DNA of 57,220 bases from Erythrobacter sp. (lineage in GTDB: Bacteria > Pseudomonadota > Alphaproteobacteria > Sphingomonadales > Sphingomonadaceae): assembly GCA_024642335.1 (NCBI GenBank), contig JAHEBH010000012.1, positions 1-57,220 on the forward strand, in the 5' to 3' direction. Below are positions 27,117 through 57,220 of this stretch, one piece after another. Each line of letters begins with the position of its first letter. The first letter of the stretch is position 1. The position numbers were made by a program, and so were the translations under genes. The notes under the pieces were generated by a model that was not told the origin of the DNA, searched no databases, and worked only from the letters and a program-made list of their open reading frames with translations.

Positions 27117-28160
27117 CTATCCAATTCTCTTGCCCAGCGAACGGGCGGTAAAATCAACCATGGGCACCACGCGTGCATAGTTCAGCCGCGTCGGTCCGAT
27201 AACCCCCAGCACGCCGACCACCCTGCCCTCGCGATCGCGATAGGGCGCGGCAATGACAGAGGAACCCGAATGCGCAAATAGGCGATTTTCCGCGCCGATA
27301 AAGATACGCGTCGATTCCGCCTCCCTTGCACTGTCGAGCAGATCGGCAATTGTCTGCTTGTTTTCAAGGTCATCGATCAGGGAGCGGATGCGCTCGATAT
27401 CCCCTAATGCGCTCTCGTCAAGCAGATTGGCCTGCCCGCGCACGATCAGAACCCTGCGTCTTGCCGCATCTTCGCTCCAGGTAACGATTCCGCGCTCGAC
27501 AAGATCGCGGCTGACATCGTCGAGCGCGCTCCTTCCGCTGCGAATCTCGCGTTCGATATCGCCAATGGCTTCCGCCAAAGTGCGCCCGGCCAGCCGCGCG
27601 GTGACATAATTGCTCGCCTGTTGAAGTGCTGACATGTCGATGTTCGGGGGCATGTCGAGCACACGATTCTCGACATGCCCGTCCTCGCCGACCAGGACGA
27701 CCAAGGCTCGACTACCGTCAAGCGGGACCATGTTCATCTGTTTGAGCCGCCGCTCTGACCGCGGCACCATGACCATGCCCGCCGCGCCGGAAATGTGCGA
27801 CAGGATCGTGCTGGTCGTCTCCAGAGCCTGTTCGATGGGTCCGGGCTGTGAAAGCTGTGCCTCGATCGCTGCCCGCTCCTGTGCGGTAGGTTCCGCCACC
27901 TGCATCATCCCGTCGACGAAGAGCCGCAAGCCGCCTTCTGTCGGCATGCGCCCCGCGCTGGTATGCGGGGCGGCCAACAGACCGAGATGTTCCAGTTCAC
28001 TCAGCACAGAACGGATCGAGGCGGGCGACAGATTGATCTCGCGATGCTGCGCCAGCGTCTTCGACCCCACCGGCACACCGCTCGCCAGGTAATCCTCCAC
28101 CACAAGGCGAAAGATATCCCGTGCGCGCTCTGTCAGTTCGGTAATCGAAGGTGAGACCAT
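27117..28160 (-). CDS. hrcA: Heat-inducible transcription repressor HrcA
   Basis: A 347-residue repressor that binds CIRCE elements and needs GroEL for activity. The N-terminal winged helix (ARDIFRLVVEDYLASGVPVGSKTLA...LSPASIRSVLSELEHLGLL) and the GAF-like dimer domain are both present. The frame extends upstream to 28445, but the ATG at 28160 gives the family start. No CIRCE inverted repeat is visible in its own upstream region (28161-28232); its targets, probably groES-groEL, are not in the window. Divergent from rph across 72 bases. Confidence 0.96.
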   Translation of the reverse strand: MVSPSITELTERARDIFRLVVEDYLASGVPVGSKTLAQHREINLSPASIRSVLSELEHLGLLAAPHTSAGRMPTEGGLRLFVDGMMQVAEPTAQERAAIEAQLSQPGPIEQALETTSTILSHISGAAGMVMVPRSERRLKQMNMVPLDGSRALVVLVGEDGHVENRVLDMPPNIDMSALQQASNYVTARLAGRTLAEAIGDIEREIRSGRSALDDVSRDLVERGIVTWSEDAARRRVLIVRGQANLLDESALGDIERIRSLIDDLENKQTIADLLDSAREAESTRIFIGAENRLFAHSGSSVIAAPYRDREGRVVGVLGVIGPTRLNYARVVPMVDFTARSLGKRIG

Positions 28161-46750: not shown

Positions 46751-46815
46751 CTCACCCTTGGCTTGTCGAAGGGTGAGCCGCGTAATGCAATCGTGCTTCG
46801 ACAGGCTCAGCACGA
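46751..46815. repeat. REPIN-like pair between cysK and dienelactone hydrolase gene
   Basis: Two hairpins lie in the 100-base gap. The first has 9-bp arms (CTCACCCTT 46751-46759, AAGGGTGAG 46769-46777); the second has 7-bp arms (TCGTGCT 46791-46797, AGCACGA 46809-46815). The first loop carries TTGTCGAA and the second TTCGACAGGCTC, that is, the same core in opposite orientation, which is the layout of a REPIN (two REPs inverted). A related core occurs inside ppdK at 54251-54275. Confidence 0.8.
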
Positions 46816-46835
46816 GCGGCCAAAGGAGTGGCTAG

Positions 46836-51623: not shown

Positions 51624-54304
51624 TCCGCCAACGCCGCCTGCGCCGCCGCGAGCCTTGCGATGGGCACGCGATAGGGTGAGGCCGAGACGTAATCGAGGCC
51701 GACCTGCTCGCAGAAGGCGATACTGGCAGGATCGCCTCCATGCTCGCCGCAAATGCCCAGCTTGATATCGCTGCGCGTCGCCTTGCCGCGTTCTGCAGCC
51801 AAGCTCACCAGCTGGCCCACGCCATCGACATCGAGGCTGACGAAGGGATCGCGCGGATAGATGCCCTGTTCGACGTAAGCGGCAAGGAACCTGCCGGCAT
51901 CGTCACGGCTGACGCCCAGCGTTGTCTGCGTCAGGTCGTTGGTGCCGAAGGAGAAGAAGCGCGCTTCCTTGGCAATTTCACCCGCCATCAGCGCGGCGCG
52001 CGGCAGTTCGATCATCGTTCCGACCGTGTAATCGAGCGTCCTGCCCTTTTCGGCAAAGACCTCTGCCGCGACACGGTCCACCAGTTCGCGCAGGATTTGC
52101 AGCTCCCTGCGCGTGGCGACGAGCGGGATCATCACTTCGGGCACGATCGGATCCCCGCCCTGCGAGGTCACTTCGCAAGCAGCTTCGAAGATCGCACGCG
52201 CCTGCATCTCGTAGATCTCGGGGAAGGTAATGCCGAGGCGGCAGCCACGGTGGCCCAGCATGGGGTTGAACTCGTGCAGCTCGTTCGCGCGGCGCTTCAG
52301 GTGGTCGATGCCGACACCCAGGTCATCCGCCAGAGCGGCGAACTCCTCGTCGCGCTGCGGCAGGAATTCGTGCAGCGGCGGATCGAGCAGGCGGATGGTG
52401 CACGGCAGGCCCGCCATGCAGTGGAAGATTTCGGTAAAGTCGCTGCGCTGCGCCGGCAGCAGCTTGGCCAGCGCCTTGCGCCGACCAGCCTCGTCATCGG
52501 CCAGGATCATCTCGCGCACGGCCATGATGCGCTCGGCATCGAAAAACATGTGTTCGGTCCGGCACAGGCCGATGCCCTCGGCGCCGAACTGGCGCGCCAT
52601 GCGGCAGTCCTCTGGCGTTTCGGCATTGGTGCGCACGCCCATGCGGCGGTATTTGTCCGCCCATTCCATCAGAATGCCGAAGTCTCCGGCAAGTTCGGGT
52701 TCGGTGGTCGGCACCGCGCCGTCCATCACCTGTCCGGTCGCACCGTCGAGCGTGATTACATCGCCTTCCTTCAAATCGCGCGCGCCGATCTTGAGCGTCC
52801 GCGAGGCCATATCGATCGAGACTGCAGAGGCGCCTGAAACGCAAGGCCGACCCATGCCCCGCGCAACCACTGCGGCGTGGCTGGTCATCCCGCCGCGCGC
52901 TGTGAGGATTCCCTGCGCCGCATGCATGCCGTGGATGTCCTCGGGCGAGGTTTCCACGCGAACAAGGATCACCTTGTCGCCATTGTTGGCCCAGCGTTCG
53001 GCAAGGTCTGAATCGAGCGCGATCTTGCCCGATGCGGCACCCGGCGAAGCGGGCAATGCCGTGGCGAGAATATCGCGCTCGGCATCGGGATCGAGCGTAG
53101 GGTGCAGCAACTGGTCGAGCGCCATGGGGTCGACGCGCTTGATCGCGGTCACCTCGTCGATCAGCCCCTCACCCACCATGTCCACCGCCATCTTCAGCGC
53201 GGCCTTGGCGGTGCGCTTTCCCGATCGGGTCTGCAGCATCCACAACTTGCCGCGTTCGACGGTAAATTCGATGTCCTGCATGTCGCGGTAGTGCTTTTCG
53301 AGCAGGTCGAAGACGTTGGCCAGTTCGGCATAGGCTGCGGGCATGGCTTCTTCCATGCTCGGCAATTCGGCGCCGGCAGCCTCACGGCCGCGTTTGGTGA
53401 GATATTGCGGCGTGCGGATGCCGGCGACAACATCCTCGCCCTGGGCATTGACCAGCCATTCGCCGTAATAATGGTTCTCGCCCGTCGCCGGATCGCGGGT
53501 GAAGGCAACGCCGGTGGCGCTGGTATCACCCATATTGCCGAACACCATCGCCTGCACGTTGACGGCCGTGCCCCAGTCTCCCGGAATATCGTTCAACCGG
53601 CGATAGACCTTGGCGCGGTCAGAATCCCAGCTGTCGAACACGGCACGGATGGCGCCCCACAGCTGCTTGGTCACATCCTGCGGGAATGGATGACCCAGCT
53701 CACCCTCGGCAATCGTCTTGAATTCGGCGACCAGTTCCTTCCAGTCATCCGCTTCCATCTCGGTATCGGCGAAATAGCCGCGATCTTCCTTGGCAATTTC
53801 CAGCGCTTCCTCGAACAATCCATGGTCGAGGCCGAGCACAACGTCCGAATACATCTGGATGAAACGGCGATAGCTGTCCCAGGCAAAACGCTCGTCGCCG
53901 CTGGTGTTCGCCAGACCCACAACCGTTTCGTCGTTGAGGCCGAGGTTGAGCACCGTATCCATCATGCCGGGCATGGACACGCGCGCGCCCGAGCGGACCG
54001 AGACGAGCAGCGGATCGCCCGCATCACCGAATGCCTTGCCCACGGCGCGCTCGATATGCGCCAGTGCTTCGGTGACTTCGGCCTTCACTTCTCGGGTGAA
54101 ATCGCCGCCTTCCTGCAGATAGCGCACGCATTCTTCGGTGGTGATCGTAAAGCCCGGCGGGACCGGCAGGCCGATCTCGGCCATCTCGGCCAGGTTCGCA
54201 CCCTTGCCGCCGGTGATCGTCTTGTCCTTTGCGCGTGGGTCGCTTTCCCCCCGCTCAGCCTGAGCCTGCCGAGGGCCGCCGAAAGTATAGACCATCTTGT
54301 TCAT
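51620..54304 (-). CDS. ppdK: Pyruvate, phosphate dikinase
   Basis: An 894-residue enzyme interconverting pyruvate + ATP + Pi and PEP + AMP + PPi. Present are the N-terminal ATP-grasp (KGANLAEMAEIGLPVPPGFT), the swivelling phospho-His domain GGMTSHAAVVARGMGRPCV and the C-terminal PEP domain with CGEHGGDPASIAFCEQVGLD carrying the catalytic Cys. Between FGG (8-10) and the GGKGANL motif there are about eight more residues than usual; that segment is encoded by a REP-like core (54251-54275). No downstream gene shares the transcript except possibly glyS upstream. Confidence 0.95.
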   Translation of the reverse strand: MNKMVYTFGGPRQAQAERGESDPRAKDKTITGGKGANLAEMAEIGLPVPPGFTITTEECVRYLQEGGDFTREVKAEVTEALAHIERAVGKAFGDAGDPLLVSVRSGARVSMPGMMDTVLNLGLNDETVVGLANTSGDERFAWDSYRRFIQMYSDVVLGLDHGLFEEALEIAKEDRGYFADTEMEADDWKELVAEFKTIAEGELGHPFPQDVTKQLWGAIRAVFDSWDSDRAKVYRRLNDIPGDWGTAVNVQAMVFGNMGDTSATGVAFTRDPATGENHYYGEWLVNAQGEDVVAGIRTPQYLTKRGREAAGAELPSMEEAMPAAYAELANVFDLLEKHYRDMQDIEFTVERGKLWMLQTRSGKRTAKAALKMAVDMVGEGLIDEVTAIKRVDPMALDQLLHPTLDPDAERDILATALPASPGAASGKIALDSDLAERWANNGDKVILVRVETSPEDIHGMHAAQGILTARGGMTSHAAVVARGMGRPCVSGASAVSIDMASRTLKIGARDLKEGDVITLDGATGQVMDGAVPTTEPELAGDFGILMEWADKYRRMGVRTNAETPEDCRMARQFGAEGIGLCRTEHMFFDAERIMAVREMILADDEAGRRKALAKLLPAQRSDFTEIFHCMAGLPCTIRLLDPPLHEFLPQRDEEFAALADDLGVGIDHLKRRANELHEFNPMLGHRGCRLGITFPEIYEMQARAIFEAACEVTSQGGDPIVPEVMIPLVATRRELQILRELVDRVAAEVFAEKGRTLDYTVGTMIELPRAALMAGEIAKEARFFSFGTNDLTQTTLGVSRDDAGRFLAAYVEQGIYPRDPFVSLDVDGVGQLVSLAAERGKATRSDIKLGICGEHGGDPASIAFCEQVGLDYVSASPYRVPIARLAAAQAALAD
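54251..54275 (-). repeat. REP-like core inside the 5' end of ppdK
   Basis: In the ppdK direction the segment reads CCTCGGCAGGCTCAGGCTGA and continues GCGG. It matches 19 of 24 bases of the REP arm at 46796-46819 and contains CTCAGGCTGAG, a self-complementary core. It encodes about residues 11-18 of PpdK, exactly where extra residues occur before GGKGANLAEM. Confidence 0.55.
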
Positions 54305-54365: not shown

Positions 54366-56507
54366 TCAACCCTCGATCTTCGAGAAATCGGCCACATTGT
54401 GCACTGCAACACGAAAGCGTGCAAGCAGGTCGAGCCTGCTGCTGCGCTTTGTCTGATCCTCGTCATTCACCGTCACCTCGTCAAAGAAGGCATCGATCGG
54501 CGCGCGCAGGCTGGCGAGCGCGGACATGGCACCTTCGAAGTCTTCGGCTTCGATGGCTGCCGCCGCCTTAGGCTCGGCTGCATCCAGCGCGTCGATCAGC
54601 GCCTTCTCTGCCGCTTCGGGCGTGTAGGAAAGTCCATCCTGCGGCTGCCACTCCTCCTTCTTGAGGATATTGGCCGCGCGTTTGTATCCGGCGAGCAGGT
54701 TCGTGCCGTTATCGGTGTCAATGAAGGCCTGCAGTGCGTGGACGCGGGCGAGCAGGCGGACGAGATCGTCCTCCCCACCGAGCGCGAACACTGCGTCGAT
54801 CAAATCGTGGCGAACACCCGCTTCGCGTTGCTGGACCTTGAGGCGGTCGATGAGGAACGGCTCAAGCGAAGGATATCCAGTGGCGGCACCTGTTTCCATG
54901 AGAAGCCGCTGGTAGGAAACTCGTAGGCCGTTGTTCAAGATCAACGCAAGAAAGCCCAACGCAGCACGGCGTAATGCGAACGGATCCTTTGAGCCAGTAG
55001 GTAGCATATCGGCAGCGAAAAATCGCGCCAGCGTATCCAGCTTATCCGCCAGCGACACCGCCACCGTCACCGGCGCAGTCGGCACTTCATCGCCCTGCCC
55101 CACCGGCTTGTAGTGATCGCGGATCGCGTCTGCCACCGCATCAGTCAAGCCCTCGGCGCGGGCGTAATATCCGCCCATCAGGCCCTGCAATTCGGGGAAT
55201 TCGCCGACCATTTCGGTGACAAGGTCGGCCTTGCACAGGCGCGCGGCCTGTTCGGTGAGGTCGGCTAATGAAGCCCCTCCCTTGAGGGAGGGGTTGGGGT
55301 GGGTGTTCGACGATTGCGAGGTGGCACCCCCCACCCCCGGCCCCTCCCCAGCGGGGAGGGGAGTATGGGCGATGATGCCTTCCTCAACCAGCCACCTCGC
55401 CAGCTTCGCCACGCGTTCAACCTTGTCGGCGACGGTTCCCAGCTTCTCGTGAAAGGTAATCCGCTCCAGCTTCTTCGCGTGGTCCGCCAGCGGCGTCTTC
55501 CGATCCTGCTCCCAGAAGAAGCGCGCATCGGACAGGCGCGCGGCGAGGACCTTGCGGTTGCCGTCCACCACCACTTCGGGGTCTTCCGCAGTGATGTTGG
55601 CGGTGCAGACAAAAGCATTGGCCAAACGATCCTCCCCAACTTGGGGAGGATGACACACGAAATACTTCTGGTTCACGCGCGCGGTCAGCTGGATCACCTC
55701 GGGCGGCACGTCGAGAAAGCTCTCATCGAAGCGACCGAGCAAAGGCACTGGCCATTCGGTCAGGCCGGCATTCTCGATCACCAGTCCCTCGTCCTCGACC
55801 AGCTTGAGGCCCGCTGCCTCGGCAGCCTCGGCAGCCTTGGTGCGGATCGCATCCTGCCTCTCCTCATGATCGACGATCACGTGGCAGGCGCGCAGCTTTT
55901 CGGCATAGTCGTCCGCCGATCCGATGGTGATCTCGCCGGGGCAGTGGAAACGATGGCCATGCGTGGCATAGGACGAATGCACGCCGTCCACCTCGCATTC
56001 GACCAGTTCTTCGCCCAGAATGGCGACTATGCCGGAGAGCGGACGCACCCAGCGCAGGCTTTCCGTGGTGCGCGAGGCGTCGCCCCAGCGCATCGACTTG
56101 GGCCAGCTGAAATCACGGATGATCGCGGGGATGGCCTCGGCCAGCAAGTCCTTCACCGAACGACCGGGCTTGTTGATCACCGCGAACCACGTGTTGCGGC
56201 CCTTTACGTCGCGCAGTTCGATCTGGTCGCGCCTTACGCCGTTCTTGCGGCAAAAGCCGTCAATCGCCTGATCGGGTGCACCTTCGGGCGGGCCCTTTTC
56301 CTCAAGGCTCACGTCCGCTGTGACATCCGGCAGGTCACGCGCAATCAGCGCCAAACGGCGCGGCGTGGACCATACGGTGAGATCACCCACTGACACACCA
56401 GCCGCAGCCATCTCACGGCGGAAGAGCTTTTCCAGCTCCGCACGGGCACCGGCCTGCATGCGGGCGGGAATTTCTTCGCTGCGGAGTTCGAGGAGGAAGT
56501 CGCTCAT
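54366..56507 (-). CDS. glyS: Glycyl-tRNA synthetase beta subunit
   Basis: A 713-residue beta chain of the alpha2-beta2 bacterial enzyme that charges tRNA-Gly. The N-terminus [18 protein letters not shown], the HD-like core ([23 protein letters not shown]) and the C-terminal anticodon/DALR region are recognisable. Two segments look inserted: HPPQVGEDR (about 286-294) and a low-complexity stretch at about 381-412 ([14 protein letters not shown]...). Both are encoded by perfect palindromes or REPIN-like DNA, in frame. ATG 56507 overlaps the glyQ TGA as ATGA. Confidence 0.95.
55274..55361. repeat. REPIN-like palindromic element in frame within glyS
   Basis: Two strong hairpins face each other. 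The first has 9-bp arms CCCCTCCCT / AGGGAGGGG (55274-55293) and the second 9-bp arms CCCCTCCCC / GGGGAGGGG (55341-55361), each next to a GGGGTGGG- or CCCACCCC-type tract (55295-55303, 55326-55338) that also pair with one another. This is the two-inverted-REP layout of a REPIN, about 88 bp. The translated product in frame is Pro/Gly/Ser-rich and continues through it without stop. The flanking protein resumes family-like sequence on both sides. Confidence 0.8.
55629..55651. repeat. Perfect 23-base palindrome within glyS
   Basis: ATCCTCCCCAA and TTGGGGAGGAT are exact reverse complements around one central base (55629-55651). It encodes the PPQVGED part of glyS near residues 286-294, where other GlyS proteins have a short loop. 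A second, distinct in-frame repeat of the same general type lies 270 bases further on in the gene. Confidence 0.8.
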
Positions 56508-57220
56508 TTCGACCACTCCGGATATTTCTCGGCCCAGCCAGCGGCCTCCTTCGCCATATGGGCTTCACAAGACCCGCGCGCGAGATCGCGAACGCGGGCC
56601 ATGTAGCTGGCACGTTCCTGCACTGAAATCACACCGCGCGCCTGCAGCAGGTTGAAGATGTGGCTCGCCTCCACCGCCTGTTCATAGGCGGCGATGGGCA
56701 CTTCGGCGTCCAGCGAGCGCTTGCACTCCGCCTCCGCCTTGTTGAACAGGTCGAACAGCGCATCGGTATCAGCAACCTCGAAGTTCCACTTCGACATCTG
56801 CCGCTCGTTCTCGAGGAAGACGTCGCCGTAACTCACGCCCTTGCCGTTGAAATCGAGGTCATACACATTGTCGACGCCCTGGATGTACATGGCGAGGCGT
56901 TCGAGCCCGTAGGTCAGTTCACCCGCCACCGGCTTGCAGTCGAAGCCGCCCATCTGCTGGAAATAGGTGAACTGGGTCACTTCCATCCCGTCGCACCAGA
57001 CCTCCCAGCCCAGCCCCCACGCGCCCAGCGTGGGGCTTTCCCAGTCATCCTCGACAAAGCGGATATCGTGCTTGAGCGGATCGACGCCGATCACCTGCAG
57101 GCTGTCGAGATACCATTGCTGGATCTGAGGCGGGCTCGGCTTCAGGATCACCTGGTACTGGTAATAGTGCTGCAGCCGGTTGGGGTTCTCCCCATAGCGG
57201 CCATCGGTCGGGCGGCGGCA
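56504..57220 (-). CDS. glyQ: Glycyl-tRNA synthetase alpha subunit (5' end outside window)
   Basis: The class II catalytic subunit of glycyl-tRNA synthetase. The visible part is 238 residues, and the frame runs off the right edge. The conserved [19 protein letters not shown] begins at the boundary, followed by [41 protein letters not shown] and the C-terminal helix. About 50-60 N-terminal residues lie beyond 57220. Its stop overlaps the glyS start, so the two subunits are translationally coupled. Confidence 0.97.

Follow-up and report, generated by a model that had tools for sequence, protein, structure and literature searches.

Organization of the locus

The window (the whole stretch of DNA that was analyzed, 57,220 nucleotides) carries on its minus strand glyS, the gene for the beta subunit of glycine--tRNA ligase (GlyRS beta). 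Its open reading frame (ORF) spans positions 54366 to 56516; the conserved start is an ATG at 56507, and the list of ORFs begins at the in-frame GTG at 56516. The product matches PF02092 with an E value of 2.2e-182 and TIGR00211 with 710 bits, the latter in two stretches; since the better of these covers residues 3 to 376, the profile breaks at the start of an insert, the parts of which are as follows.

54366..56507, minus strand: glyS, glycine--tRNA ligase beta subunit, 713 amino acids (PF02092, TIGR00211)
55274..55361, minus strand: inserted palindromic dimer (family A) in glyS, encoding residues 383-412; missing from short-loop relatives
55274..55293, unstranded: hairpin 1, 9-bp arms CCCCTCCCT/AGGGAGGGG, loop of 2 (TG); hairpin search
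55296..55303, plus strand: GGGGTGGG tract; read from the sequence
55330..55337, plus strand: CCCACCCC tract, complement of the GGGGTGGG tract; read from the sequence
55341..55361, unstranded: hairpin 2, 9-bp arms CCCCTCCCC/GGGGAGGGG, loop of 3 (AGC); hairpin search
55629..55651, unstranded: single hairpin TCCTCCCC..GGGGAGGA, in frame in a second variable loop of glyS (about residues 286-293)

The element in glyS is real. As the original prediction had it, two 9-bp hairpins face each other here, GGGGTGGG and CCCACCCC tracts pair between them, and the reading frame of glyS runs through without a stop (residues 383 to 412); GlyS has thereby gained a Pro/Gly/Ser-rich segment that is absent from relatives with a short loop. 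The insert is open in three of the six frames, and the 106-base stretch containing the element, folded alone with RNA parameters, reaches -62.9 kcal/mol (plus strand) and -57.1 kcal/mol (minus strand). When the whole 57-kb window was searched for hairpins with perfect 9-bp arms and loops of 2 to 10, six matches at five places were obtained: both hairpins of the element, the one at 55629-55651 (listed twice), one at 46751, and another perfect 9-bp hairpin at 27651-27677.

In an AlphaFold model of GlyS (47 sequences; mean pLDDT, 90.2), the blocks covering the insert (residues 381 to 410), flanked by helix 359-375 and helix 411-424, have pLDDT values of 40 to 55. The insert is thus predicted to be a disordered linker between two helices of an otherwise confident model, which is the outcome of the check on a structure model that had been proposed for the peptide. 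By alignment, Escherichia coli GlyS (7yse) has eight residues (379 to 386) at this loop, a place that, going by the accessible part of PMC8464048, falls within the HD domain (residues 341 to 540), between the cavity residues Lys364/Arg367 and Lys394. A backup GlyRS of the dimeric type (TIGR00389), which might have relieved glyS of selection, was rejected as an explanation, since none of the 40 genomes of the genus, our own included, had a match above the cutoff; weak partial matches, over some 80 to 100 profile positions, were seen in 7 of the 40. The palindrome is kept in frame in a glyS gene for which no such backup was found.

Copies of the element in its own genome

A genome search with the 106-base query returned 27 matches at E values up to 10, counting the window copy and matches on the opposite strand, and 14 of the 27 were below 0.01; given these further copies, family A is a dispersed repeat. 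Five of the 27 matches, again with the window copy, span most of the query, and three of these near-full-length copies are in frame in genes: the one in glyS, one in uvrA (C16:2011-2102; 91% identity) and one in ileS (C35:109498-109595; 83%), the latter two in the same orientation as in glyS. The two closest copies of the glyS element, which are also the best hits of the genome-wide search suggested with the original prediction, thus both lie in genes. A fourth copy (C83; 78%) reaches the end of its contig, and no long ORF spans the fifth (C30; 74%). In all three genes of this genome, the left arm of family A is read in the frame that yields PLP. A test based on codon-position G+C called 17 of 19 own copies nongenic; since the glyS copy itself was among the 17, this crude coding test undercalls, and it also missed the known glyS copies L001, L171, and L174. 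Apart from the two closest copies, it called none of those tested genic. Most family A copies probably lie outside genes, a point against the explanation favored below.

Among 30 loci of the genus, the uvrA loop was filled in seven, five times by family A and twice by a B-type element, the other 23 loci having a short loop with VPGRE. The uvrA tree requires six changes of state, a number not below that of shuffled labels, and the grouping of all filled UvrA alleles in one clade was rejected (p-AU, 0.00015). The uvrA loop therefore behaves like the glyS loop described below, being recurrently filled by two family types. Not every loop that is hit is such a hotspot, as shown by ileS, where the element was found in only 2 of 30 loci (our own genome and one other), at the identical place.

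The glyS loop in relatives

GlyS was located in 39 of the 40 genomes of the genus, our own included, and the best 30 loci were compared; for named genomes, the best 80 of 581 confirmed matches were used. The GTDB genus of the window includes Alteraurantiacibacter aquimixticola (Erythrobacteraceae), represented here by L032. The resulting 110 rows consist of 17 other alphaproteobacteria, 91 distinct sphingomonads, which are best-scoring matches rather than a random sample, and two duplicates (L060, identical to L032, and L066, identical to L039) that were dropped before counting. A long insert at reference positions 376 to 418 was present in 36 of the 91 best-scoring sphingomonad GlyS sequences and in 11 of the best 30 loci of the genus. 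The remaining 55 of the 91 lacked it, with L063 and L071, which have short inserts, scored as "none," and it occurred in none of the 17 other alphaproteobacterial sequences, the loops of which are short throughout.

Of the 38 listed inserts (the 36 plus the two duplicates), 35 contained one or more perfect hairpins with arms no shorter than 7, the other three (L029, L038, and L118) being imperfect palindromes of family B; over the 38 rows, a mean of 3.1 of the six frames was open per insert. With arms of 8 or more and loops of 2 to 6, the glyS genes of the 91 sphingomonads contained 103 hairpins, of which 59 lay at reference positions 380 to 419, 22 around position 620, and 7 at positions 280 to 299. 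Codon-shuffled genes averaged 31.8 across the entire gene, so the 59 at this single loop exceed chance; the 17 other alphaproteobacterial genes had five hairpins, scattered. The two minor sites (around 286 to 293 and around 620) hold several families, sorted by eye. Long inserts at the former were present in 6 of the 91 sequences, a set that does not include the window with its short hairpin. At the third loop, around reference position 620, palindrome segments were seen in L033, L073, L078, L080, L083, L107, L110, L113, and others. Upstream of glyS, a perfect 8-bp hairpin was found within 300 bases in at least 21 of the 110 rows (for example, L030, L032, L033, L041, L061, L067, L088, and L126), in a count that took in only rows with the LLEL motif; by eye, the upstream family was that of the loop in a few rows (L030, L032/L060, L061, and L092), without any rule.

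The comparison bore out the expectation that the segment would be missing from short-loop GlyS, while the further expectation, an element present in relatives only at this spot, had overlooked the unrelated palindromes found there. It is these unrelated repeats of many relatives, all at one loop, that make the glyS loop a repeated landing place. Since the insert is frequent in one order (36 of the 91 best-scoring sequences) and three genes of the window genome share the PLP frame for the left arm of family A, one might suppose that the peptide itself is selected, serving GlyRS as a flexible loop that binds a partner, for example, or tunes stability. We consider this quite unlikely: by eye, the insert peptides of different families have no common sequence, the model shows no fold for the insert, and 55 of the 91 proteins do without a long one. 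The loop peptide is presumably made and neutral.

Palindrome families at the loop and their dispersal

Sorted by eye, the inserts fall into at least six families, distributed over the glyS loop as follows.

Family A (CCCCTCCC): 8 inserts
Family A2 (CCCTCTCCC): 5 inserts
Family B (TTCGACAAGCTCAG and kin): 4 inserts
Family C (ATTCCCGC or ACCCCAGC, GTCA at the ends): 8 inserts
Family D (GGACTTGATCC): 4 inserts
Family E (CCTCCCC..GGGGAGG with GGGACC): 6 inserts
Family F (L104 alone): 1 insert

Searches of host genomes covered families B, C, and E, leaving out A2, D, and F, and their counts include both strands, half elements, and, where matched, the glyS copies. Three host genomes searched for family C contained 2, 15, and 4 matches, three searched for family E (with 40 candidates scored per genome) contained 62, 8, and 11, and two searched for family B contained 11 and 46, two of the 11 being matches to the tRNA-like start discussed below. 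Families B, C, and E are thus dispersed repeats in the hosts searched. In the window, a family B-type dimer (CTCACCCTTGGCTTGTCGAAGGGTGAG ... CTTCGACAGGCTCAGCACGAGC) was found at positions 46751 to 46820, directly past the stop of a putative cysteine-synthase-like ORF, and family B is therefore also present in the window genome. Separately, in a putative pyruvate phosphate dikinase gene (positions 54242 to 54274, minus strand), the N-terminal PRQAQAERGES resembles an in-frame family B piece (CTCAGCCTGAGC), a segment found only in the window genome and in A. aquimixticola (L032) among the 74 rows listed.

It could still be argued that nothing was inserted and that the segment is a low-complexity linker, palindromic by chance, for which nothing speaks beyond its Pro/Gly-rich makeup. 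Given the genome copies, with identities of 91 and 83%, the dispersal of other families, and the excess of hairpins at the loop, this is highly improbable, and on the basis of the genome copies and the hairpin excess we rejected a chance hairpin or low-complexity linker. Likewise, neither of the two results named beforehand as speaking against an insertion (the segment in relatives without the palindrome, or a lack of other copies) occurred.

Probable recurrent insertion into a tolerant loop

On a GlyS tree of 108 rows, built by a quick method with the loop columns removed, the presence and absence of the insert require at least 22 changes, and all eight labels at least 33; well-supported branches alone force at least 14 changes for the label "none." Shuffled presence labels required a mean of 30.4 changes, and none of 500 shuffles came as low as 22. 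Presence is therefore clustered on the tree and must in part be inherited, which counts against the explanation that we favor.

That explanation starts from what was directly observed (the element, its copies, its reading frame, its disorder in the model, the recurrence of inserts, and the changes of family on the gene tree) and is, taken as a whole, probable in our judgment. A dispersed noncoding palindromic dimer would have been copied into GlyRS beta at the loop that joins two helices of its HD-like domain, where the insert would survive with the frame kept and without a stop, contributing no more than a flexible Pro/Gly/Ser-rich linker. Across sphingomonad lineages, dimers of different families would be taken up repeatedly by this loop, by two other loops of GlyS, and by one loop of UvrA, with purifying selection on the protein acting as a sieve and the loop as a tolerant site. 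We infer that most filled loops are separate insertions.

The codons next to the insert complicate this picture. Every one of the 36 filled alleles carries L/I-A at reference positions 414 to 415, a pair absent in 53 of the 55 others, and the two exceptions are L063 and L071, with their short, remnant-like inserts. So tight a junction exceeds what simple neutral insertion would give and could mean that the filled alleles share an origin; either the helix following the lengthened loop demands the change or such a shared origin exists. A possible, if less than probable, alternative to repeated insertion is thus that one or a few old insertions occurred and that later palindromes were swapped in place by recombination or template switching or by transfer between species. 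This would account for the L/I-A directly after inserts of any family and after both remnants. It would also explain why, with 25 codons on either side and the junction included, all 36 filled alleles have a filled nearest neighbor, whatever the species, and yet one of the identical family in only 3 of 36 cases; upstream codons 350 to 374 alone still link filled to filled alleles in 31 of 36 cases. Related alleles with different families at one place (L107 with C and L110 with A2; L033 with A and L036 with C; L038 with B and L039 with D) point the same way, as do, by eye, a cut-off head (GTCACCCC) before a complete one in L079, L080, and L107 and the insert of L036, which starts with an apparent family D head and continues with a family C dimer. 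However, the link with the flanks fades without the junction codons: the state matched in 84 of 91 alleles with them but, without them, in 66 of 91 at 15 codons on either side and in 45 to 62 of 91 in windows farther from the loop. Moreover, two empty alleles of the outgroup type (L074 and L088) sit inside a mostly filled clade, and a single UvrA clade was rejected. Repeated insertion into a tolerant loop remains our preferred reading.

Possible origins of the inserts

REPIN/RAYT systems are known from Pseudomonas and others. Like a REPIN, the glyS element consists of two inverted REPs that form a long hairpin with a pairing spacer, and it has dispersed copies in its own genome; unlike in those systems, no RAYT gene lies beside the glyS repeat, nor did the genome contain a linked RAYT gene flanked by REPs of the same family. 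Its one Y1/RAYT-like gene (36.2 bits to PF01797 and 58.9 to NF047646, for which the cutoff is 80) is surrounded by GGGGACA repeats, and the glyS repeat is not among them. A gene of the Y1/RAYT type was found in 3 of the 40 genomes of the genus, our own included, and in none of the other 37; of the 11 filled loci of the genus, only G000 and G025 are in a genome with such a gene. With the gene elsewhere than beside the glyS repeat and in so few genomes, a strict REPIN was rejected. What stands of the original term "REPIN-like" is an inserted, dispersed, dimeric palindrome.

Two inserts offer a hint of how they arose. The insert of G023 opens with a match of 27 out of 28 letters to the 3' end of a tRNA-Met gene (scoring 51, where the highest of 500 shuffles reached 25), and that of L136 opens with another tRNA-Met 3' end (34 identical positions in 37 aligned columns); these tRNA-Met-like starts (L029:2626-2653 and L136:4116-4152) comprise the T arm, the acceptor strand, and CCA. 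Both chimeras join at one glyS valine codon and continue with a palindrome dimer. An exact search for the L029 and L136 starts returned one place per genome, the glyS insert itself, and looser matching then retrieved tRNA-Met genes, after which no dimer was seen today in the stretch read in either genome. These two cases, few as they are, resemble the copying of stretches of the genome more than the clean cut of a transposon. In the alternative of exchange at an old insertion site, palindromes and tRNA-Met chimeras would be exchanged in place by such copying of genomic repeat stretches, without a dedicated transposase, a mechanism that we put forward only tentatively.

The shared junction of the chimeras, at the same GTT/GTC codon, and the start of inserts directly after a conserved Ile/Val codon pair could also reflect a preference of the mover for the conserved glyS codons before the loop (typically GAG-GGG-ATC-GTC). 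Such a target preference is unlikely in our view, as the site receives several families that are unrelated and differ in their ends, other residues flank the insertions in uvrA and ileS, and the glyS loops around 286 to 293 and around 620 are hit as well.

Relation to known in-frame repeats

Rickettsia palindromic elements (RPE) are reportedly found in frame in likely functional proteins, in work by Ogata and colleagues and, in 2003, by Claverie and Ogata. In glyS, uvrA, and ileS, too, going by the genes alone, an insert is kept in frame in housekeeping proteins, and the parallel with RPE drawn in the original prediction is a fair one as to way of working. Unlike RPE, the inserts described here have sphingomonad hosts and belong, as far as seen, to other sequence families, several of which reuse one loop.

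Closer precedents come from Di Nocera and colleagues (2013; PMC3733652), who, in the part of the paper accessible to us, cite RPE as in-frame palindromic repeats in Rickettsia genes and describe intragenic dimers of GTAG/CGTC REPs that keep the frame of known genes, for instance uvrA and tRNA synthetase genes of Xanthomonas oryzae, Erythrobacter litoralis, and Sphingopyxis alaskensis. The statement that such an insertion is little described for a sphingomonad was consequently too strong. According to the same text, most copies of these REPs lie between genes, CGTC repeats have no associated transposase genes, and different REPs occupy about one recB site in two Xanthomonas genomes. Like those REPs, the glyS palindromes are often facing dimers in frame in known genes, and the window element, as well as the copies in uvrA and ileS, lies wholly within a known gene and is absent from many orthologues. 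Unlike members of the CGTC superfamily in that description, family A shows, by eye, no unpaired CGTC or variant at the end of the palindrome; family C and D inserts of relatives have, also by eye, GTCA adjoining the arm. A further difference from the accounts in that part of the paper is that one glyS loop is filled in 36 of 91 best-scoring sequences by at least six families, with the uvrA loop behaving likewise, although glyS may itself be among the genes with intragenic REPs in PMC3733652. Enterobacterial RU elements (PMC2759123) are MITE-like units of 103 to 168 bp that lie inside genes and supply peptide segments to proteins; the glyS inserts are shorter and occur in other hosts, and the abstract of that paper tells of no repeatedly hit loop. 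In the open-licence literature, we found no report of repeated palindrome insertion in glyS. In-frame REPs are thus a known class, and what was not found in that literature is a single loop of an essential gene taken so often by so many families.

Implications

These loops amount to a natural replicated experiment on short selfish DNA entering protein genes, run at one site of an essential gene in dozens of species and with several repeat families, with empty alleles alongside. Two questions thereby come within reach of testing: how REP dimers lacking their own transposase are moved, and whether the protein simply tolerates such inserts or has made them part of itself. For phylogeny and annotation, they are a warning that length differences in housekeeping proteins can be repeat insertions. 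If palindromes were indeed swapped in place at an old insertion site, an essential gene would record a succession of selfish repeats across a bacterial order.
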